In this document: one piece after another, positions 49,667 to 61,611 of the stretch
How positions within the stretch are numbered: the first letter of the stretch is position 1
Layout of the letters: each line of letters starts with the position of its first letter
DNA from: Bacteroidetes bacterium RIFCSPLOWO2_12_FULL_35_15
GTDB lineage: Bacteria > Bacteroidota > Bacteroidia > 2-12-FULL-35-15
Direction of reading: 5' to 3'
Assembly (NCBI GenBank): GCA_001769385.1
Contig: MEPB01000038.1
Location: 1 to 64,000, forward strand
Length of the DNA: 64,000 nucleotides
The notes under the pieces: generated by a model
Told to the model about the DNA's origin: nothing
The model's database searches: none
The model's input: only the letters and a program-made list of their open reading frames with translations
Translations under genes and position numbers: made by a program

Positions 49667-52303
49667 TTACTTTACTACCATTACCTTTCTGAAAGCGGTT
49701 TTATTATTATTTTTAATATTTATCTGATAAATACCGGCTGCATATCTCGAAACATCAAAGCTCTCTGTATTAGTTCCATTTAAAAAATATTTTTTTTCTG
49801 ACTCTAAAAGATTTCCATATGCATCGTATATTTTTATCAAATGCATCCCTTGGAACGAAGTAGAAAAATTAAAAAAAAGAAGCGTTGAATTGAGAGAAGC
49901 GTCAGTAATTTCCAGCTCATCAACGGTTTCTTCATCACATGTTACAGAAACAACGTCAAACGTTTTTGAAGTTCCATCAAAATCAGTTTGACTTAAACGA
50001 TAATAAGAGTTCCCATTCAAGGGCATTTCATCGATCCATAAATAATTATTTATTTGAGCACTGGTTCCTGCCCCATCAACAATTCCGTCAGATTCAAAAT
50101 TTATTCCATCTGTTGATCTATGAATCGTAAAAAAATCATTGTTAATTTCTGATGCTGTTGTCCAGGATACATTTACTTTTTCATTTAAACAATTTGCTAC
50201 AAAAGTTATCAATTCTATTGGTAATGGCGCTGTATTTTTATTTACAGAACCGATTGTAAAATAGTACACTCCATTTGCAGGCAGATCACTAAAAGATATT
50301 TTAAATTTGATGAGGTTACCGGAAACACCGGAGTTTGAATATGCCCGTTCATTCCCACCACCCTGACCAAACGTTGTATTGTCATCTAATAATAATCTTA
50401 GGTCAGCAGGAGCATTTGAGGTTCCTAAACCAAAACCACCTATGCCGGGAACTTTACTCATATCAAATTCAATTTCCAATTCATTCACGGCCTTACCACC
50501 GGGAACATTAAGAGTTTGCATACGCCAGATTCTTGCTAAGCGGACTTGAATCGGGGTTGTCCCATGCGTATAACCCACCGATAAATTAGTAGTGATACTG
50601 GCGTTATTATGTCCTGTTATAATATAAGTTCCATTTGCAATATTTGAGGGTGCAGCTATTGTATTATGTGCAATTGTTATCGGCAAATCGTTCGCACTAA
50701 GAACTGCAGGATAATTAATGCTTCTTGATTTATTTTGTTGCAACCCTTCACTTGATTCAGCTCCAATCCCTGTTATATCATAATGGTATCCTGTATTTGC
50801 CGACCAAATAGTAGAGCCTGTTGTGCTGGTATAGGAAACTGTTGCAGATCCATTTCCACCCATGGTGATCCCATATTTTACAGCGAGATAGGATTCAATT
50901 TTTATAGCCTGCGAAGTAGTAATTGTACCAGAATATGAAATTATTTCAGCAACCGGCCCATTCCAATCTCTTAATCTGCCATCAAAAAAACCAGGATTAT
51001 CAACTTGTCCGCCCATTATCCGATTAACGGAAGCACTTCCTGTTCCAAGTGATGAAATGATATCAAAACTCCCTGAATGACTTGTATTGTATGCTATTCC
51101 GCTTGGGTCTCCATTCTTACGCCAAACACCCGAAGCCTGAAAATTGGCATTTCCATAACCCAATTCACCATATTGTGCGACTGATCCACCATTCTCCCCG
51201 CCATGAAGGGCACATCCGGTGCATGGTCCTGCATACGTAACCTGATCATAGGTCCATATGTGTGTGGATTTCCTATTTATATCATTTAATTTTGAAACAA
51301 CAAAAAAAGACTGAACATTCATATCCGGAGTTGCTAAAAAATCTCCCCCGTCTCCGGCTACATTACTTAAAGTGAAATTAATATATGGATTAAAATTATA
51401 ACCGGAACTTACAAGATCAGGACTTCCATTCACAGTTATTGCCGTAGCAGCAGGACTTTGATCTGTCCATCCGGTTACATTCACACCTGAAGTTGTTACT
51501 CCTACCCCAGGTTTTAACCAAACCACCAAACCACTTGTTATTCCACCGGGGCCAACAGGGCAACCGCTGGTTGTTAGTGTAACTTGTAAAGAAGTTGAGG
51601 CTGTAACACTAGAATTAGCGGCACAAGTAACATTACAACGATAATAGGTTGCCAACGTTTGTGTGGTTGAATAAGTTGGATTTGTAGCTCCTCCTATACT
51701 TACCCATGTTGAATTATCAGGTGATGATTGCCATTGATAACTAACACATGATCCGGCTGTATTATTTTGCATAGACAGCAGGAAAGCAACATTTGAACAA
51801 ACAGGATTTAATGACGAAATAGTAATACCCGGTGCCGGAGTTGTGCAAGGAGAAGCCGGAGAAGTATATTTATATGCAATAGTTGCTGAATTGCCTGAGC
51901 CGCAAGAATAAGTGCTTAGCAATAAACGAAATGTTCCTGCTGAAGGAGGCGTCCAGGTTACATGAGATTGTAACCCGCAATAATCATCACTGTAAGCACC
52001 GGCATAATTTCCTGTATTATCTAATATGGTGATCTGACTATCAAAACTTGCATTGCTACCATCAGCAGCACAATATGAAAAATCATATGTTGGAATACAA
52101 CCTGCAGCAACGATGAATGTATAATAATTACCGGTTGTAACATTCATAGTTTGATACGAGGAGGATGGTATGGGCGAAAGCGCACCACTTGCAGTACCAC
52201 CGGAACATTGCGCACCGGCATCAAAGCAAACAAAAAATAAAAAAATAAAAAGAACTGATTTAATTAAGATCTTACAAAGTGTTTGGTATATATGTTTCAG
52301 CAT
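49667..52303 (-). CDS. T9SS cargo protein with Ig-like and LamG-type regions
   Basis: An 878-residue secreted protein. Signal peptide about 1-32 (FDAGAQ). A first beta domain (about 35-150) is followed by an Ig-like region (about 155-245, SCVSYQWQSSPDNSTW) and a concanavalin-like region starting GLVVWLKPGVGVTTSG (about 255-480). A region with IESYLAVKYGITMGG and DITGIGAESSEGLQQNKSR is common in Bacteroidota adhesins. The end has VSWTTASEINNDFFTIHRS and a T9SS type A sorting domain (about 800-878, YDAYGNLLESE, ending FRKVMVVK). Surface binding or debris-attachment function is likely but not proven. It converges on the YwqK-like gene. Confidence 0.9.
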   Translation of the reverse strand: MLKHIYQTLCKILIKSVLFIFLFFVCFDAGAQCSGGTASGALSPIPSSSYQTMNVTTGNYYTFIVAAGCIPTYDFSYCAADGSNASFDSQITILDNTGNYAGAYSDDYCGLQSHVTWTPPSAGTFRLLLSTYSCGSGNSATIAYKYTSPASPCTTPAPGITISSLNPVCSNVAFLLSMQNNTAGSCVSYQWQSSPDNSTWVSIGGATNPTYSTTQTLATYYRCNVTCAANSSVTASTSLQVTLTTSGCPVGPGGITSGLVVWLKPGVGVTTSGVNVTGWTDQSPAATAITVNGSPDLVSSGYNFNPYINFTLSNVAGDGGDFLATPDMNVQSFFVVSKLNDINRKSTHIWTYDQVTYAGPCTGCALHGGENGGSVAQYGELGYGNANFQASGVWRKNGDPSGIAYNTSHSGSFDIISSLGTGSASVNRIMGGQVDNPGFFDGRLRDWNGPVAEIISYSGTITTSQAIKIESYLAVKYGITMGGNGSATVSYTSTTGSTIWSANTGYHYDITGIGAESSEGLQQNKSRSINYPAVLSANDLPITIAHNTIAAPSNIANGTYIITGHNNASITTNLSVGYTHGTTPIQVRLARIWRMQTLNVPGGKAVNELEIEFDMSKVPGIGGFGLGTSNAPADLRLLLDDNTTFGQGGGNERAYSNSGVSGNLIKFKISFSDLPANGVYYFTIGSVNKNTAPLPIELITFVANCLNEKVNVSWTTASEINNDFFTIHRSTDGINFESDGIVDGAGTSAQINNYLWIDEMPLNGNSYYRLSQTDFDGTSKTFDVVSVTCDEETVDELEITDASLNSTLLFFNFSTSFQGMHLIKIYDAYGNLLESEKKYFLNGTNTESFDVSRYAAGIYQINIKNNNKTAFRKVMVVK

Positions 52304-52543
52304 TAGATTTTAAAATTAAAGTTTAGACAAAAAAAATTGGATGACTATTTTTATTCAAATTTAGTACGACCTAAAACCAGAACAACTTCAAAGTTTATAA
52401 GTGGAATTTATTGGGAATAAGTGGAGTGATTTTTACAAAAAGCGGGAGTTATTTAAACTATAAAATATCTGAGGATCAATAAATATTATTGAGGATACTA
52501 AAAGACTTATTAACTTAGCCTATCCTATTACTGTTTGAGGGAA

Positions 52544-55516
52544 ATGTATATTCTGAAAAAAATTATTCTTTTCTTTTTTATTCTGCAGAGCATTTATGGT
52601 GATGCACAAATCACTCCTGTTTTTTCAGAAAAAAGTTTGGCAACTACTGAAAAATATACGGTGCAAATTTGGAATACCGAAAACGGCTTACCACAAAATT
52701 CAATTAATGATATCACACAAACGAACGATGGATATATCTGGTTGGCTACCTTTGATGGATTAGTTCGTTTTGACGGGTTAAAATTTCAGATCTATAACAC
52801 ATCTACCACATCGGAATTAAAATCAAATTCGATAAAAAAATTATTTTCCGATAATCAAAATGGATTATGGATAATCACCACAGAAGGAGCATTGATCAGT
52901 TATTCCAATACTGTTTTTAAAACATACGACTTACCCGCAAAAGTAAAATACAATAGTAATACACTAGCAGAATGGGCTCAAAACTCAGTACTTGTTGTGT
53001 GCGATAACAATAAAATTTATAAGGTAAGCCAACATGATATTCAGGAATTTAAGATTCCAGAGAACATACAAACGATTAATTCCATTCAAACAAAATATGG
53101 GGATCAACTATATATTGCAAGTAACAATGGTTTACACGCCTATTTAAATAAAACATGGAACACCTATTTTCTTTTAAAAGGAAAAAATATTTTCTCTTTA
53201 TATAAGACTCCCAATGCAGATATATTGGCAAATGCACAAAATCAACTGTATTTAATACAAACTCAAAATTGCGAATCCTACGAGATCCCTATTTTATTGG
53301 ATGTCCTAACGGAATACACACTTGGATTCAATGAAAAAAAACAACTCTGTGTATTAACAAACAATGGTATTCTTACTGCTGAAAATGACCAAATAAAAAC
53401 TACTACTATCCAGAATGGATTATCATCAAATGATATTACTTCCGTTTTTGTTGATAAACAAAATAATTTTTGGGTAGGAACAAGCAATGGAGGGTTAAAT
53501 AAATTAAAAACAAAATTATTTAAAGTTCTTTCGAAAGAAGATGGAATGCAGGGTGATGGCATTACCAGCATTATTGAAACAAAAAACAAAGGAATTATTA
53601 TTGGAAATAGCTGTGCAGGGATAAGCCAATATGTCCATTCAAAATTTATTAAACAATCCTGGATTCCTGATGGATTTTGCATTTGGTCCTTGTTAGAAGA
53701 TGATACTGAAAATGAATGGCTTGGAATTTATGGTAGCGGAGTTTTTGTTTACAGTAAGAATGGGATCCTGAAAAATTATGACAAATCTGATGGATTGATT
53801 GATGGCGTTGTGTTTTCAATTTTTCAAGATTCAAAAAAAATTGTTTGGATAGGAACAAATACCGGTTTATGTTATTATAAAAATAATCGTTTTACAGCCT
53901 TTGATACAACATTTAAATATAGCATCACTCAAATTTTTGAGGATCGAAACAAACAAATTTTTTTAGCAACTAATAAAGGTCTGGCAACCATTAATAATGA
54001 TAAAATAGTATTGATTGAAACCGGAGATCTGAAAAATGTGAATGTTCGTTATATTTATGAAGATGCTGACGGGGTCTTATGGATAGGAACACATGGTAAA
54101 GGACTTATCCGTCTGAAAAACGGGGAAACATATTCTTATTCCTCTTTAACAACATCTTTAGATAATAATGTTTGGAGCATAACAGAAGATTTACAAGGAA
54201 AATTCTGGATTCCTTCTAATTCAGGAATGTATGTTATAAGCAAAAATGAACTGAATGATTTTGCAGATAATAATAATCCAAACTTAAATCCAATTTATCT
54301 TTCTAAAGAAGATGGTTTAAAAAGCATTGAATTCAATGGAGGATTTCAGGCATCGGTATTGAAAAGGGCAAATGGAGAACTTTGGTTCCCAACTGTAAAA
54401 GGGGTCGCAATTGTCAATCCTTCTGACCTGCCAAAGGTTAGTTACATGCCTCAAATTATCATTGAACAAATTAAAATAAACAATGAGATAATAAGCATTT
54501 CTGATACACTGAACCTTTCGTTATCAAGCAATGAATTATTCCTTTCATTTACCTCTCCCTCATTTAATAATGCCAACAAATTACGCTTTCAATACAAATT
54601 AGAAGGAGAAAATAATGCCTGGATCAATATCGGAACCTCACGTGAAATTAAAATACAGGAAGTACCAACGGGCACTCATCTTCTTCGTGTCAGAGTGAGC
54701 AATGGGAACAGCAATAAAGAAAAAATAATTACCCTTATCAAACCCATTCCATTTTGGGAACAAACAAAATTTATTTTTGTTGCCGTACTTATTTTTATTG
54801 CGATGATCTTATTGATCACCTACATAATAATAAATACTATCCGCAAAAGGGAAGAAGAAAAAACGCTATTACATGAAAAGTACACCTCTATCGAATTAAA
54901 GGCTTTACAAGCACAAATGAATCCTCATTTTATTTTTAATTGTTTAAATTCGATCCAGCATTTTATAATGATAAATGATGAATTATCAGCGAGTAAATAC
55001 CTTACCAAATTTTCGATGTTAATGCGGAAATATTTAGAACATTCCAAATCCAACCAGATTACCTTGCAGGAAGAATTCGATCTCTTGCGGCTATATATTG
55101 AACTAGAACTGCTACGAAGTAAATATGGATTTAAATTTCAATTAACAATTGATCCAAAAATCGATATCTTCAACCTTGAAATCCCAAGCATGTTATTTCA
55201 ACCTTTCGTTGAAAATGCTATCCATCACGGGCTTTTTAATCTTGAAAGAAAAGGGAATTTAATAATTACTTTTAAACTCGAAGAAAACCTGATCATCGGT
55301 ATGATCGAAGATGATGGTGTTGGGAGAAAAAAAGCAAATGAGCAAAATCAACAAATCAGAAAAGAACATGTATCGCGAGGCTTGGAAATTATCAAGGAGC
55401 GCATCCAGGTTTTAAATTCAATGGAAGGATTAAAAATTGATGTACAGATCATTGACAAAATGAATATAAACAAGGAGGCAGAGGGCACACTGGTTATTAT
55501 TAAAATCCCAATTTAA
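52544..55516 (+). CDS. Propeller-sensor LytS-type histidine kinase
   Basis: A 990-residue one-piece sensor. The ATG at 52544 is preferred to an upstream TTG at 52535; it gives a signal peptide MYILKK...YGDAQ. The periplasmic part has about 14 Reg_prop blades (motifs such as YIWLATFDGLVRF, FWVGTSNGGLNKL, LWIGTHGKGLIRL), enough for two seven-blade propellers. A Y_Y_Y domain follows (about 650-725), then a single membrane helix (about 742-767) and a His_kinase domain of LytS type, with LQAQMNPHFIFNCLNSIQ placing the His near 795 and the N box PFVENAIHHG near 891. It senses an unknown extracytoplasmic ligand. The LytTR partner follows after 11 bases. Confidence 0.93.
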   Translation: MYILKKIILFFFILQSIYGDAQITPVFSEKSLATTEKYTVQIWNTENGLPQNSINDITQTNDGYIWLATFDGLVRFDGLKFQIYNTSTTSELKSNSIKKLFSDNQNGLWIITTEGALISYSNTVFKTYDLPAKVKYNSNTLAEWAQNSVLVVCDNNKIYKVSQHDIQEFKIPENIQTINSIQTKYGDQLYIASNNGLHAYLNKTWNTYFLLKGKNIFSLYKTPNADILANAQNQLYLIQTQNCESYEIPILLDVLTEYTLGFNEKKQLCVLTNNGILTAENDQIKTTTIQNGLSSNDITSVFVDKQNNFWVGTSNGGLNKLKTKLFKVLSKEDGMQGDGITSIIETKNKGIIIGNSCAGISQYVHSKFIKQSWIPDGFCIWSLLEDDTENEWLGIYGSGVFVYSKNGILKNYDKSDGLIDGVVFSIFQDSKKIVWIGTNTGLCYYKNNRFTAFDTTFKYSITQIFEDRNKQIFLATNKGLATINNDKIVLIETGDLKNVNVRYIYEDADGVLWIGTHGKGLIRLKNGETYSYSSLTTSLDNNVWSITEDLQGKFWIPSNSGMYVISKNELNDFADNNNPNLNPIYLSKEDGLKSIEFNGGFQASVLKRANGELWFPTVKGVAIVNPSDLPKVSYMPQIIIEQIKINNEIISISDTLNLSLSSNELFLSFTSPSFNNANKLRFQYKLEGENNAWINIGTSREIKIQEVPTGTHLLRVRVSNGNSNKEKIITLIKPIPFWEQTKFIFVAVLIFIAMILLITYIIINTIRKREEEKTLLHEKYTSIELKALQAQMNPHFIFNCLNSIQHFIMINDELSASKYLTKFSMLMRKYLEHSKSNQITLQEEFDLLRLYIELELLRSKYGFKFQLTIDPKIDIFNLEIPSMLFQPFVENAIHHGLFNLERKGNLIITFKLEENLIIGMIEDDGVGRKKANEQNQQIRKEHVSRGLEIIKERIQVLNSMEGLKIDVQIIDKMNINKEAEGTLVIIKIPI

Positions 55517-55527
55517 AACAGTTAATT

Positions 55528-56277
55528 ATGATAAATGCAGTGATTATTGATGACGAGGAGCTGGGGCGCACCATGCTCTATAATATGCTAAATAAATATT
55601 GTAAAAATGTGAATGTTGCAGGACAAGCATCATCCGCCAACGAAGGTTTTGAATTAATCAACAAAGTATTTCCTGATCTGGTTTTTCTCGACATTGAGAT
55701 GCCGGGTGGATCGGGTTTTGACCTGTTAGAAAAAATAGCAGATAAAAATCTGGGAATTATTTTTACAACAGCATATAACCAATATGCAGTAAAAGCCTTC
55801 AAGTTTAATGCAATTGATTATTTACTAAAACCGATCAATATTGAAGAATTAATCTCTTCAGTAAATAAAGTTACCGACAAAACCTCAACTACAAATTTTA
55901 AGAGCTCTATAAAAAATCTGATTGAAAATTATAATTCACCAACCAATAAAACAAACAAAATAGCTTTGCCAACACAAGGTGGATTAGAGTTTGTTGAAAT
56001 AAAAGATATTATTCGTTGTGAAGCTGACGGGAAATATACGTTCTGCTTTTTAAGCTCTGGAAAAAGACTCCACTCTACAAGGGGACTGAAAGACTTTGAA
56101 GAACAATTAAGTTCCTATAATTTTTGCAGAATTCATCACGCCCATCTGGTTAATCTCGATCATATCAAAAATTATTTCAAAGGAGAAGGAGGATATGTGT
56201 TAATGAGCAATGGCGATAATGTAACGGTTTCGAAAAGAAAAAAAGAGGTCTTCCTAAAACAATTGAATAAAATATAA
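55528..56277 (+). CDS. LytTR-family response regulator
   Basis: A 249-residue regulator: receiver domain (1-120) with D8/D9, phospho-acceptor D55 in FLDIEMPGGSG, FTTAYNQYAVKAFK and YLLKPIN; LytTR DNA-binding domain (about 145-249) with RCEADGKYTFCFL and RIHHAHLVNLDHIKNYFKGEG. It is the partner of the propeller kinase directly upstream. It ends 66 bases from the convergent SiaC-like gene, separated by a two-way terminator. Its targets could include the SiaABC-like genes, but no site was recognised. Confidence 0.95.
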   Translation: MINAVIIDDEELGRTMLYNMLNKYCKNVNVAGQASSANEGFELINKVFPDLVFLDIEMPGGSGFDLLEKIADKNLGIIFTTAYNQYAVKAFKFNAIDYLLKPINIEELISSVNKVTDKTSTTNFKSSIKNLIENYNSPTNKTNKIALPTQGGLEFVEIKDIIRCEADGKYTFCFLSSGKRLHSTRGLKDFEEQLSSYNFCRIHHAHLVNLDHIKNYFKGEGGYVLMSNGDNVTVSKRKKEVFLKQLNKI

Positions 56278-56343: not shown

Positions 56344-56724
56344 TTATTCAGCTACCTGAACCATTTTAAACGGCACATTGATAATTGCCTGGTAATCTTC
56401 ACCGGCTTCCAACATATCTTCGTCATCTTCTTCGTAATACCAATTTATTGTAACCTGACTTCCGCCTTTATTAATTGCTTCTAATTTCTTAAACACATCT
56501 AAAATACATTTAGAAGAACTTGTGTTAAAATATTCAAGTTGAATATTAACATTTGTTGCAGACTGTGGTTTGCCTGCATATTTTTCTAACCAATCTACCA
56601 ACGGTTTATAAAACTCGATTGAGTTTTCAGGAATCGAACGTCCTTTAATTTCTAAAAATCCTTTACCTGTATCAAAAGTGATGGTTGGAGTTTTTGGTGT
56701 TCCTTCAATTGAAATTGTTTCCAT
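56344..56724 (-). CDS. siaC: SiaC-like (DUF1987) phospho-switch protein
   Basis: A 126-residue protein of the DUF1987 family, which includes SiaC of Pseudomonas aeruginosa. That protein is phosphorylated on Thr68 by SiaB, dephosphorylated by SiaA, and in its unphosphorylated form activates the diguanylate cyclase SiaD. Here the central stretch IQLEYFNTSSSKCILDVF carries Thr at residue 68, exactly the same number. The acidic YYEEDDEDMLEAGEDY near 101-116 is also family-like. The SiaB-like gene lies 10 bases upstream on the same strand. No GGDEF protein is in the window, so the output partner is unknown. Confidence 0.9.
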   Translation of the reverse strand: METISIEGTPKTPTITFDTGKGFLEIKGRSIPENSIEFYKPLVDWLEKYAGKPQSATNVNIQLEYFNTSSSKCILDVFKKLEAINKGGSQVTINWYYEEDDEDMLEAGEDYQAIINVPFKMVQVAE

Positions 56725-56734
56725 ATGCTTTTTG

Positions 56735-57280
56735 TTATTGAGAAATTTTAATATTTAAACTAAAAAATGAATGCTTGTCATCTACCGGAAAAAAACTGAA
56801 ATTTAATTTTTCACCTGTCTTGCGTGCAATGTCTATCATTCCTAATCCTCCTCCACCTTTCAGGGACATTTCACCATTATTTAAAACTAATTTATAATAC
56901 TCTTTCAATTCTTCTTTAGAAAGTAAATTAATATCTTCCAAACGTTTTCTTAATCCCTCTACACCTGAGTTATTAATATAATTTCCAGTAATAATATTAT
57001 ATTGATTATCAATTTTCCCGATCATAAAAATTGCAGAACGTATTTTATCACTTTGATTAGGAGCTATTTCATCCATATGATGATAAAGGTTTTGAAGACA
57101 CTCCACCAATACGTTATAAACTTTCTTTTTTATTTTTGGTTCTTCCTGCAAATTATCCAACTTCGATTCCATTATTTGCAAAATGGATGTAAGTAATTCA
57201 GAGGTAATATCGCCTTTAAAAGAGAGCATAATATTATTACGCTCCATTTTATCGTAGAAATCATATATGTCTAACATCAT
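56735..57280 (-). CDS. siaB: SiaB-like protein kinase (GHKL-type ATPase fold)
   Basis: A 181-residue protein like SiaB, the kinase that phosphorylates SiaC. The GHKL-type ATP site can be read: N box VYNVLVECLQNLYHH with E60 and N64, and the Gly-rich box LKGGGGLGMIDIARKTG (about 140-156). It resembles anti-sigma-factor kinases but without a sigma partner nearby. It lies 10 bases upstream of the SiaC-like gene and has a -7 box (57330-57337) of its own. Kinase activity on the neighbouring protein is inferred from the family and from the conserved Thr68 there. Confidence 0.87.
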   Translation of the reverse strand: MMLDIYDFYDKMERNNIMLSFKGDITSELLTSILQIMESKLDNLQEEPKIKKKVYNVLVECLQNLYHHMDEIAPNQSDKIRSAIFMIGKIDNQYNIITGNYINNSGVEGLRKRLEDINLLSKEELKEYYKLVLNNGEMSLKGGGGLGMIDIARKTGEKLNFSFFPVDDKHSFFSLNIKISQ

Positions 57281-57329
57281 AAGATCTTTATTTTATCGAT
57301 ATTATTATTTGTCCTGAATTAAAATTAAG

Positions 57330-57337
57330 CAAATATA
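57330..57337 (-). promoter_or_regulatory. Bacteroidota -7 box TATATTTG (siaBC)
   Basis: TATATTTG on the minus strand matches TAnnTTTG and ends 49 bases before the siaB-like ATG. It means siaB and siaC can be made without the upstream lipoprotein and phosphatase genes. Confidence 0.55.
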
Positions 57338-57419
57338 GAAATAAGTTTAAATAATCAAACAGTAGATTTTTAATTTTTAATACAATTTATTCAAAAAAAA
57401 TGATTAACAGGTTTTTTTG

Positions 57420-58238
57420 TTAATTCATGGTAAATGTAAAGGTATTCCCATTTATTGTCAATGTTGCCTGATTATCGCAATTTCCACTACCAAAATCAAC
57501 AGTACGTGTTGCGTATCCATCAGGAGTCAAATCAACTCTACCGGACTCGATCCAACTGCAGGAAGTACGTTTAACAATATTTGTTGTAATAACGGAAGTA
57601 TAAGCCAAACCATTACGATTTTTGCCATTCGCACTTCCTGACAAAGAGTAAACATCATCATAAAAATTCAAAGGAGTTGCATTTCCGGCTGTCTGGGTAA
57701 TCGTACGGTTACAGGCCCATTCCATGGTCCAGCTGGAGTTGGTAACAACGCCATGATAAACCTGGGTAGTAAACGCTGATGGGGCACTATGTATGAATTT
57801 AATACTATCTGTACTGTATGAAACCCCATCCACAGAATAATTAGTCAAATTAACTTTAATATAACTTCCAACCAAATGCCAGTAATTTGAAAACACACAG
57901 GTTAATGTACCTTTTCTGGTTTTATGATCAATTGAATCATAACATCCTGTTGTTCCATAATCGATGGTCATAGTTACAGGAAATCCATTTAAAGTATCGG
58001 CAGGATCAATTACTATGGTTGGGCAAGATGAACGCCCATAATCCATTAAACTTTTTACTCCCTGCTCCCTGATGCCAAATCCATTAACGGTATTCATGGT
58101 TCGGGTAAATTCCCCTTCGCAAAAACTATTATCTACAGACGATTGGGTTTCGGTATCGGGCTTTTCCTTTTTACAGGAATTTAGTGTAAACACCAGTCCG
58201 CCAAGGACAACAACTGATAAAAATAATATTCGTTTCAT
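57420..58238 (-). CDS. Lipoprotein of unknown function in the Sia-like cluster
   Basis: A 272-residue lipoprotein (lipobox TLNSC, C22). The mature protein is beta-rich with seven cysteines after the lipid anchor (for example NSFCEGEF, RSSCPTIV, TGCYDSID, RTSCSWIE, GNCDNQAT), which could pair as disulfides. Repeated motifs TMTIDYGTTGC and TRTVDFGSGNC, each with a Gly and Cys, suggest an internal duplication. I do not recognise a named family. It lies between the propeller phosphatase and the siaB-like gene on the same strand, with its own -7 box; whether it belongs to the system is open. Confidence 0.78.
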   Translation of the reverse strand: MKRILFLSVVVLGGLVFTLNSCKKEKPDTETQSSVDNSFCEGEFTRTMNTVNGFGIREQGVKSLMDYGRSSCPTIVIDPADTLNGFPVTMTIDYGTTGCYDSIDHKTRKGTLTCVFSNYWHLVGSYIKVNLTNYSVDGVSYSTDSIKFIHSAPSAFTTQVYHGVVTNSSWTMEWACNRTITQTAGNATPLNFYDDVYSLSGSANGKNRNGLAYTSVITTNIVKRTSCSWIESGRVDLTPDGYATRTVDFGSGNCDNQATLTINGNTFTFTMN

Positions 58239-58276
58239 GTTCGTTTTTTTTTAATACTATAATCTTATCCAAGGAA

Positions 58277-58284
58277 CAAATTTA
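58277..58284 (-). promoter_or_regulatory. Bacteroidota -7 box TAAATTTG (lipoprotein)
   Basis: TAAATTTG on the minus strand fits TAnnTTTG and lies 38 bases before the ATG of the lipoprotein gene at 58238. Confidence 0.5.
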
Positions 58285-58314
58285 GTGAAATTTAAATTAA
58301 TCTCATATCAATTA

Positions 58315-61300
58315 TTAAAACCTGATTCCGATTATTAATATATCATCTACCTGCTGGTAATTTCCTCTCCAATTCTCAATTGTATGTTCTAATTCGATTG
58401 CTTGTTCCTGCATTGTTTTGTTCTGAACTGAAAGTAAAAGTTCATTGTATCGTTTCACCATGAATTTTTTCCCTTTCTCCCCACCAAACTGATCGGCATA
58501 ACCATCAGACGACATATAAATAGTATCCCCTTTATTTAATTTTATGGTATTCGATCTGAATTTGCGTTCGGCCTCTAATTGTGAACCTCCGATTGGATAT
58601 TTATCGGCTTCGATTTTTTCGAGCTTGCCATTATTAATAATAAATAAGGGTCTGAATGCCCCTGCAAATTGTAATTCACTATTTTTTTCATCAATTGTAC
58701 AGAGTGCAAGGTCCATTCCATCACTTGTATCAACAATATTTGTCCCTTGCTTCAATGCATTCTGAACACCTCGGTGAAGTAAATTTAAAATTTGGTCAGG
58801 TTCAGTTATTCCATTCTCAGAAATTATTTGATTCAACAAATTATGTCCGATCATACTCATGAATGCACCGGGAACACCATGACCTGTGCAATCTACAGCT
58901 GCGATGATTTTTTTCCCATTTTTTAAACCAAACCAATAAAAATCCCCGCTTACAATATCCTTCGGTTTATAAAGAATGAATGCCTGAGGGAAATATTTAT
59001 AGATCTGTTCCAATGGGGGTAAAATGGCTAATTGAATACGCTTTGCATATTGAATGCTACTTGTAATATCTTTGTTTTTCTGCGCCAGTTCCTGTGTCCG
59101 CTCCTCCACTTTTTCTTCTAATATTTTATTTTCACGTTTTATTGCATTTGTACGATATTTGAAAAAGCCCCAAAAGCAGCTAATGATAAACACCACACAC
59201 AAAACAAAAAACCATTTTGTTTTCCAAAACGGAGGTTTGATGTGAATAACAAGTGTGGCACCTTCGTTGTTCCAGACTCCATCATTATTTGCAGCTCTTA
59301 CCCGGAAAACATAATCCCCACCGCTTAATTCGGTATAACTGGCATAATGCTGTGTACTTGGAGGAGACCAATCAGCATCAACACCTTCCAGCATATAAGA
59401 GTATTTATTTTTTCCGGGCATCTGATAGTCAAGTGCAGCAAAATCAAAGGAAAAGAAGTTGTCGCGCCAGGAGAGTTCAAGATATTTTTTATCGTAAATT
59501 GCTGTATCTAAATTTACTTCCTTACCAAAACGCTTATATGAAATAATCCGTACCAATGGAATATTAGGATTGTCAGTAATTTTTTCCGGCTTAAACGTGT
59601 TGAATCCATTCACACCACCTAAAAATATTTCTCCCGATTTAGATTGAAAATAGGCTCCCTGGTTATACTCCAATCCCTGCACCCCATCATTTACATCATA
59701 ATTCCGAAATGCGGAACCATTTTCATTTTTTACAAAGGGGTTAAATTTTGAAACCCCTTTATTGGTACTCATCCATAGGTTTCCTTTAGCATCAGCCAAA
59801 ATGCAATAGATATAATCGTTCGGCAAACCATCTTTTTCAAAATAATGATCAAAATGTTCTGTTTTAGGATCCATTTTATTTAACCCATTTGTGGTCCCGA
59901 ACCAAATGTTTCCTTGCCGGTCCTCAAACGTACAATTCACTGCATTGGAACTGATGCTGTTCTTTTTTTCATCGCGGACAAAGGCTTTAAAAATTCCTGT
60001 TGCCGGATCAAATTTATTTACTCCACCACTTTCGGTAGCGATCCAGATATTGTTTTTGCTATCTTCAAATATGTTGAAAATATTATCATCATTCAATCCA
60101 TTTTCTGTGGAATAATTTTTGAATTTTTTAGTGGATTTATCATACACATAAGCTCCTCCGCCATATGTTCCAATCCAGATATTATTTTTCCGATCCTCGA
60201 AAATGCACATCACTGTGGCTGAATTTACAGGATCAAATTCGGGATATGAAATTATTTTCTTTGTTTTCTTATTATAGGATGAAAGGCCGCTACCCCATGA
60301 TCCTACCCAAATGTTGCCTTCTTTATCCTCACAAAGAGATAAGATCGAATTGGTGGTCCCAGTTGATAATTTTGGATACTGTTGATAGGTATTGGTAGCT
60401 CTGTCAAGTGTTGTAAGTCCTCCATTTGCTGTACCGATCCATAACAAACCATCAGCATCTTCTAAAAGGGATAAAACGGTGTTACTTTTTAAACCATTAT
60501 CCGAATCAGAATTTTTTTTATAATATTTAAACTTATTGGATCCACGAAAATGAGCATTTACGCCTCCTCCTTCGGTACCAACCCACATGGTACCAACGTT
60601 ATCATAATAGATGCATTTTATCTGATTGTTATTTAATCCACTTGGATTTTTTTCATTATACCCCAAATGTCTGAAGGAACCTGTTTTTTTACTATATACA
60701 TCGATCCCGTTACCATAGGTTCCAAACCATACTATTCCGTTTGCATTTTCGGCAATGCTCATTACCTGATTATTAGATAAGCCACCCTCCTCTTTTCTTA
60801 AATTTTTTAAAAATTTACCTGATCCGGGGTCAAACACTTGAATTCCTTCTCCATAAGTACCGATCCAAAAAATACCATCTTTATCCTCATAAATACTACG
60901 TATCTTATTACTATTTTCATGTAGTAATTTGCCATGTGTATCCAGCTCGAAATAAGTTTCGAACTTTCCGGTTCTTTTATCAAAAGAATTTAGTCCGCCT
61001 CCATAAGTACCTATCCACAAACGACCATCTTCGCCCTGATGCAAGCACCAGGCATTGTTATTGGAGATCGAATTAGCATTATTTTCATCATTCAGATAAC
61101 GTGTAAATCTGTTTGATTTCCGATCATAGGAATTTAATCCTTCATCTGTACCAAGCCAAATAATACCTTCACTATCTTCTAAAATCGCCCTGATATTATT
61201 ATTACTTAAGCTGTTATTTATTTCAGACTTTGAAGTATGATGTTTAAACTTTCCGGTAATTAAACTGTATTCATCCAACCCGCCACCGCTGGTTCCAATG

Positions 61301-61611
61301 AATAGAATGCCCTTTTTATCTTCGTAAAGTGAGTAGATGAAATTATTTGAGAGCGAATTGGAATCAACCGGATTATGCTTAAAAACGGTGATATTATATC
61401 CATCGTATTTATTCAATCCATCCTGTGTTCCAAACCACATGAATCCGCGGCTGTCTTGCAACACACAATTTACCACGCCCATCGACAATCCCTGATCGGC
61501 AGTGATATGACTAAATTTTAATTCTTGTGCAGAAGCATAATTAAAACTTCCTAAAAGAAGTAAAACAATGAAGAGTAGTTTGAAATAGTTTAATGCTCTT
61601 TTAAAAAACAT
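58315..61611 (-). CDS. Propeller-sensor SpoIIE/PP2C phosphatase (SiaA-like)
   Basis: A 1098-residue transmembrane phosphatase. Signal peptide about 1-28 (NYASAQ). The periplasmic part has about 14 Reg_prop blades (WFGTQDGLNKYDG, LWIGTYGGGLNSFD, IWIGTYGGGAYVYD), enough for two seven-blade propellers, followed by a Y_Y_Y domain (about 715-790). One membrane helix (about 799-818) leads through a coiled coil (KILEEKVEERTQELAQK) to a cytoplasmic SpoIIE-type PP2C domain (about 860-1098). Metal-binding residues are D890 in VSGDFYWF, D907 in DCTGHGVPGAFMS, D1036 in SSDGYADQ and D1089/D1090 near the end. The catalytic half is that of SiaA; the sensor half is Bacteroidota-style. It should dephosphorylate the SiaC-like protein when the ligand signal is present. 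Confidence 0.92.
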   Translation of the reverse strand: MFFKRALNYFKLLFIVLLLLGSFNYASAQELKFSHITADQGLSMGVVNCVLQDSRGFMWFGTQDGLNKYDGYNITVFKHNPVDSNSLSNNFIYSLYEDKKGILFIGTSGGGLDEYSLITGKFKHHTSKSEINNSLSNNNIRAILEDSEGIIWLGTDEGLNSYDRKSNRFTRYLNDENNANSISNNNAWCLHQGEDGRLWIGTYGGGLNSFDKRTGKFETYFELDTHGKLLHENSNKIRSIYEDKDGIFWIGTYGEGIQVFDPGSGKFLKNLRKEEGGLSNNQVMSIAENANGIVWFGTYGNGIDVYSKKTGSFRHLGYNEKNPSGLNNNQIKCIYYDNVGTMWVGTEGGGVNAHFRGSNKFKYYKKNSDSDNGLKSNTVLSLLEDADGLLWIGTANGGLTTLDRATNTYQQYPKLSTGTTNSILSLCEDKEGNIWVGSWGSGLSSYNKKTKKIISYPEFDPVNSATVMCIFEDRKNNIWIGTYGGGAYVYDKSTKKFKNYSTENGLNDDNIFNIFEDSKNNIWIATESGGVNKFDPATGIFKAFVRDEKKNSISSNAVNCTFEDRQGNIWFGTTNGLNKMDPKTEHFDHYFEKDGLPNDYIYCILADAKGNLWMSTNKGVSKFNPFVKNENGSAFRNYDVNDGVQGLEYNQGAYFQSKSGEIFLGGVNGFNTFKPEKITDNPNIPLVRIISYKRFGKEVNLDTAIYDKKYLELSWRDNFFSFDFAALDYQMPGKNKYSYMLEGVDADWSPPSTQHYASYTELSGGDYVFRVRAANNDGVWNNEGATLVIHIKPPFWKTKWFFVLCVVFIISCFWGFFKYRTNAIKRENKILEEKVEERTQELAQKNKDITSSIQYAKRIQLAILPPLEQIYKYFPQAFILYKPKDIVSGDFYWFGLKNGKKIIAAVDCTGHGVPGAFMSMIGHNLLNQIISENGITEPDQILNLLHRGVQNALKQGTNIVDTSDGMDLALCTIDEKNSELQFAGAFRPLFIINNGKLEKIEADKYPIGGSQLEAERKFRSNTIKLNKGDTIYMSSDGYADQFGGEKGKKFMVKRYNELLLSVQNKTMQEQAIELEHTIENWRGNYQQVDDILIIGIRF

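Follow-up and report, generated by a model that had tools for sequence, protein, structure and literature searches.

What does a Sia-type phospho-switch control in a member of the Bacteroidota? The question is raised by genes on the minus strand at positions 56344-61611 of the window (the whole stretch of DNA analysed here, 64,000 nucleotides in length). In Pseudomonas, the Sia switch controls a biofilm signal, and known partner switches act on sigma factors, stressosomes or cyclases. The original prediction described the genes in the window as a Sia module rewired to a propeller receptor, with an unknown output. That reading is right in outline, and the output now has a leading candidate: an ABCG-type exporter, to which a domain fusion, operon linkage and co-occurrence all point.

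Gene content of the operon

The operon consists of four genes, in the order phosphatase, lipoprotein, SiaB and SiaC, separated by gaps of 76, 139 and 10 bp. The coordinates and strand originally predicted are correct, and Pfam and NCBIfam searches confirm the SpoIIE/PP2C phosphatase, the kinase and the DUF1987 protein. Only these three switch genes had been recognized, and the lipoprotein gene within the operon (57420-58238, minus strand) had been missed. It encodes a conserved protein of a family without a name, for which Pfam and NCBIfam searches returned no match.

The sensor phosphatase (58315-61611, minus strand), which would take the role of SiaA, has a signal peptide, Reg_prop propellers, a Y_Y_Y domain, one transmembrane segment (approximately residues 800-817), a coiled coil and a SpoIIE/PP2C domain. 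Pfam detects 13 Reg_prop stretches in addition to Y_Y_Y (E 4.6e-18) and SpoIIE; the 14 blades first proposed are plausible as a by-eye count of the WxGT-type motif, of which a regular expression finds nine. The solved structures closest to the sensor are the Bacteroides two-propeller receptors 4a2l (E 1e-104) and 3v9f, while residues 824-1098 match the SiaA-PP2C structure 6k4e (E 5e-40). The metal-binding aspartate motifs of the phosphatase are conserved.

The SiaB-family kinase (56735-57280, minus strand) matches PF19788/DUF6272 (E 2.8e-42) and the NCBIfam SiaB_fam_kinase model NF038262 (167.8 bits; cut-off 85), as well as structure 6kko_A (E 7e-15). Its N-box is intact, with both E60 and N64 conserved. 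The SiaC-type phosphoprotein (56344-56724, minus strand) matches PF09345 (DUF1987) with an E value of 2.5e-46 and 156.7 bits (cut-off 24.5). Its predicted acceptor, T68, aligns with T68 of Pseudomonas aeruginosa SiaC, a mapped phosphorylation site (PMC7647112), and 135 of 137 homologues carry T or S at this position. For all three switch proteins the nearest solved structures are from P. aeruginosa (SiaC 6kko/6k4f, SiaB 6kko_A, SiaA-PP2C 6k4e). With T68, the N-box of the kinase and the aspartate motifs of the phosphatase all conserved, and Sia proteins as the nearest structures, the switch machinery is present. Judged from sequence, the four genes encode a Sia-type partner switch with predicted kinase and phosphatase activities.

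Like SiaABCD of P. aeruginosa, the operon combines a PP2C phosphatase, SiaB and a SiaC whose T68 occupies the equivalent position, in identical gene order (PMC7647112, PMC8457831); it differs in that a propeller receptor replaces the SiaA sensor, a lipoprotein is added, SiaD is absent and an exporter is the likely effector. It lies outside the strict SiaABCD biofilm system: there is no adjacent SiaD, and the proteins score below the NCBIfam equivalog cut-offs (SiaA 209.8 of 700 bits, SiaB 91.4 of 225, SiaC 105.5 of 150). Periplasmic propellers and Y_Y_Y are shared with the Bacteroides Reg_prop hybrid two-component receptors (4a2l, 3v9f), whose output is a histidine kinase, whereas here it is SpoIIE/PP2C.

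Convergent with the operon are genes for a Reg_prop histidine kinase and a LytTR response regulator (52535-56277, plus strand; Pfam), a pair that is probably outside the switch. Beside the histidine kinase gene lies one for a large protein that carries a T9SS type A sorting domain (49667-52303).

Recurrence in the Bacteroidota

The operon is not a one-off and recurs in many Bacteroidota. Among 80 named loci with the main SiaC, SiaB is found in 78, the lipoprotein in 55 (where its position is unchanged) and the Reg_prop phosphatase in 40; SiaC, SiaB and Reg_prop-PP2C occur together in 40. The linkage of DUF1987 to Reg_prop-SpoIIE on which the first reading depended is borne out in other genomes: where at least 5.2 kb of upstream sequence is available, Reg_prop-PP2C lies within 3 kb in 38 of 59 loci. 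Copies of the main SiaC in the 80 loci share 75-99% identity; as these were picked for similarity, the high identity would fit, with that reservation, a constrained partner.

Of 36 genus genomes, 34 contain SiaC. The window's genome yields 15 matches to SiaC, which correspond to about a dozen genes, and 12 to SiaB, a multiplicity left out of the original prediction of a single module. Many SiaC loci carry phosphatases with other sensors. Fusions within the switch are also seen: SiaB-SiaC, SiaB-SiaB (twice) and SiaC-SiaC (L029:9604-10566, L023:9114-10211, L027:7898-9022 and L027:12427-13248), and, in another genome, PP2C-SiaB (L236:8162-10039). One SiaC match (G000:C70:96194-96541, in locus L189) has eight stop codons and adjoins an intact SiaB gene, and is probably a decayed copy. 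Another paralogue (L026:9267-9656) has isoleucine at the T68 position and is possibly unswitchable at that residue. Genes for CheR and CheB (with a GAF-like membrane protein) precede PP2C-SiaB-SiaC(-transporter) in L211-L213 and L277-L279, and in the window's genome at L022:3222-4670, a possible methylation-adaptation input.

An ABCG-type exporter as candidate output

The candidate effector consists of ABC_tran followed by ABC2_membrane (Pfam), the NBD-TMD architecture of an exporter, and is ABCG-type by its PDB matches. It carries an N-terminal extension of 250 residues, for which the structural model is of good quality (pLDDT 85, pTM 0.80): residues 1-142 match the TerB-like structure 2h5n (Z 9.5), and residues 148-240 match FHA folds with middling scores (Z 6-7.3). 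By sequence, TerB reaches an E value of 6e-4, below Pfam's cut-off; a Pfam search for FHA in the transporter gave no match, and a canonical phosphothreonine-binding pocket is unrecognisable by eye in the FHA-like domain. In most loci a lipoprotein of ~300 aa and an exported protein of ~144 aa adjoin the transporter. The set in the window's genome (C38:75802-80363) comprises the transporter itself (G000:C38:77274-80363), a 298-aa lipoprotein and a 144-aa exported protein. Here the transporter lies outside the window, 20.5 kb beyond SiaC, and its assignment to the window's SiaC is therefore drawn from relatives.

The first line of evidence is a protein in one distant genome (L269:6525-7649) in which the transporter's N-terminal domain is fused to SiaC. 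Its gene is located between a SiaB-SiaC pair and a transporter gene, ending 8 bp ahead of the latter. The N-terminal part matches the transporter profile with an E value of 1.5e-14 (52.4 bits; the best of 5000 shuffles reached 0.053), and a model of the fusion (pLDDT 85.5, pTM 0.66) matches both SiaC (7e6g, Z 19.7) and 2h5n (Z 7.5). The genome of the window encodes a second fusion (L021:8858-9961), likewise with a transporter gene following closely. Here the N-terminal part gives a weak match (E 0.0022, though the best of 5001): the transporter profile misses it with default HMMER filters and gives E 0.012 with the filters off, and the hhalign probability is 4.8%. The fusion argument is consequently carried by L269.

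Operon linkage provides the second line of evidence. PP2C-SiaB-SiaC-transporter operons are found in family f9 (L211-L213) and in L277-L279, and the order SiaB-SiaC-transporter, with further copies, in L276, L281 and L282; in all of these a transporter gene of ~1000-1030 codons comes after SiaC (after a second SiaC in L281). L321 and L323 have an operon of the window's type that converges directly on the transporter set, as does the main SiaC operon on the main transporter set in L346, L109, L161, L163, L165 and L168, and in many genus genomes the transporter is convergent with, or within a few kb of, the main SiaC operon. About a dozen genus genomes have a second SiaC adjoining a second transporter, a pattern of co-duplication. 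When loci were instead chosen by transporter (40 loci hand-picked from the listed class-level matches, mostly one to few per family), SiaC was found within 7 kb in 16, spanning 13 of 26 families, where simple random placement would give fewer than one in 40; in the other 24, SiaC was not in reach within the locus stretch that was searched. The linkage recurs in both orientations in these 13 families.

Thirdly, the two genes tend to occur in the same genomes. In a sample of 247 genomes from across the phylum, the transporter is present in 5 of 14 genomes with SiaC and 0 of 233 without it (Fisher p 3e-7, a value that ignores kinship, three of the five positives being of one family). All five belong to the window's class, and nine SiaC-positive genomes of other classes in this sample have no transporter. 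At class level it is found in 188 of 396 genomes. It is present in 32 of 34 named SiaC-positive genomes, which were picked for the main SiaC, and in 33 of 36 genus genomes; one of the latter (G028, 87% complete) has the transporter and no SiaC match.

The most serious alternative is that the exporter partners only those SiaC paralogues that share its operons, and that the main SiaC of the window acts on another protein. The 20.5 kb that separate the main transporter from SiaC in the window's genome would fit this, as would its lack of linkage in some genomes (in L284 and L285, which come from genomes with genes for fructose-bisphosphate aldolase (FBA) and AccD after SiaC, the 16-kb stretch around the main transporter contains no SiaC), and with about a dozen SiaC genes in the window's genome their targets may have diverged. 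We nevertheless consider it unlikely, given the convergent main operons listed above, the short distances in many genus genomes and the presence of the transporter in nearly all genomes selected by the main SiaC.

Alternatively, the gene order might be conserved without function, with SiaC acting on metabolism or on the LytTR pair. Same-strand genes for FBA and AccD come after SiaC in 30 and 27 of 80 loci, at median distances of about 100 and 75 bp (both genes were named from sequence starts, not by family search), and the LytTR pair adjoins SiaC in the window. These neighbours are confined to some lineages, however, and no SiaC fusion with either was seen, in contrast to the linkage and fusion found for the transporter; we regard this explanation as highly improbable. 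Both candidate outputs were rejected: FBA/AccD on their lineage-limited synteny and lack of fusions, and the histidine kinase/LytTR pair because it is convergent and, within the genus, neighbours SiaC in some members only. Loci with FBA and AccD directly downstream of SiaC include L116, L118, L125 and L145, with others among L089-L168.

A possibly swappable output and a proposed mechanism

The original prediction noted that no GGDEF protein is present, and this holds for the entire 5.39-Mb genome, in which no GGDEF domain was detected by a search that was positive in 8 of 14 control genomes. The idea that the switch still governs c-di-GMP, as it does in P. aeruginosa, by way of a distant or divergent cyclase is largely refuted: within the phylum, a GGDEF gene does follow SiaC in family f29, but the domain is absent from the window's genome and from 34 of 36 genus genomes, though SiaC is found in 34 of 36. 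In f29, the operon is Reg_prop-PP2C - SiaB - SiaC followed by the GGDEF gene (L231, L232). As a propeller phosphatase is here coupled with a GGDEF gene, having a propeller as input does not entail the loss of SiaD. Thus, of the proposed rewiring, the recurring propeller phosphatase without SiaD stands, and the two changes are separable. That the slot after SiaC holds a GGDEF gene or an exporter gene within one phylum suggests that the switch can exchange one output for another.

Taking together the computed gene content, conserved residues, domain fusion, operon linkage and co-occurrence, we think it probable that the propeller phosphatase, SiaB and SiaC form a switch in which SiaC docks on and gates the ABCG-type exporter. 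In this mechanism, the periplasmic double propeller would sense a presumed ligand and set the activity of the cytoplasmic PP2C domain through the single transmembrane segment. The phosphatase would remove phosphate from T68 of SiaC, and SiaB would restore it with ATP. The output would most likely be the exporter with its TerB-like and FHA-like N-terminus, rather than a diguanylate cyclase: SiaC, whose fold is STAS-like, would dock on this N-terminal domain and gate export of a putative substrate, with phosphorylation of T68 switching the docking. As to the presumed direction of control, we lean slightly towards unphosphorylated SiaC as the docking form over recognition of pT68 by the FHA-like domain, because of the analogy to SiaC-SiaD, whose binding is blocked by phosphorylation of T68 (PMC8457831).

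Two known systems resemble this arrangement in part. Rv1747 of Mycobacterium tuberculosis is a putative ABC exporter regulated by the phosphothreonine protein Rv2623, and, as proposed here, has an N-terminal docking site for a threonine-phosphorylated regulator (PMC5549992). Its FHA domains have been shown to take part in binding, and the partner is a universal-stress-protein (PMC5549992); in the present case, the domains are TerB-like and non-canonical FHA-like, the partner is STAS-like and the binding is putative. MlaFB (6xgz), which is among the fold matches of SiaC, likewise has a STAS-fold protein within an ABC transporter. There, MlaB pairs with the ATPase subunit (according to the entry title), whereas it is an accessory N-terminal domain to which SiaC is fused or linked, and SiaC forms part of a kinase/phosphatase switch.

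More tentatively, and with somewhat less than even confidence, the system may be widespread within the class, with extracytoplasmic receptors (propellers, PAS/GAF and chemotaxis-like units) controlling an envelope exporter whose TerB/FHA-like domain reads SiaC phosphorylation directly. If so, this would be a partner switch acting on a transporter, not on a sigma factor or cyclase. We found no earlier report on SiaC, DUF6272 or TerB/FHA-ABC transporters in Bacteroidota (most subscription journals lay outside the search). DUF1987 proteins are widespread and were suggested, in the structural study of SiaC-SiaD, to modulate adjacent proteins (PMC8457831). The fusion, the operons in several families and the near-exclusive co-occurrence single out the ABC exporter as such an adjacent protein, and move SiaC of the Bacteroidota from a protein of unknown output to one with a testable candidate output.
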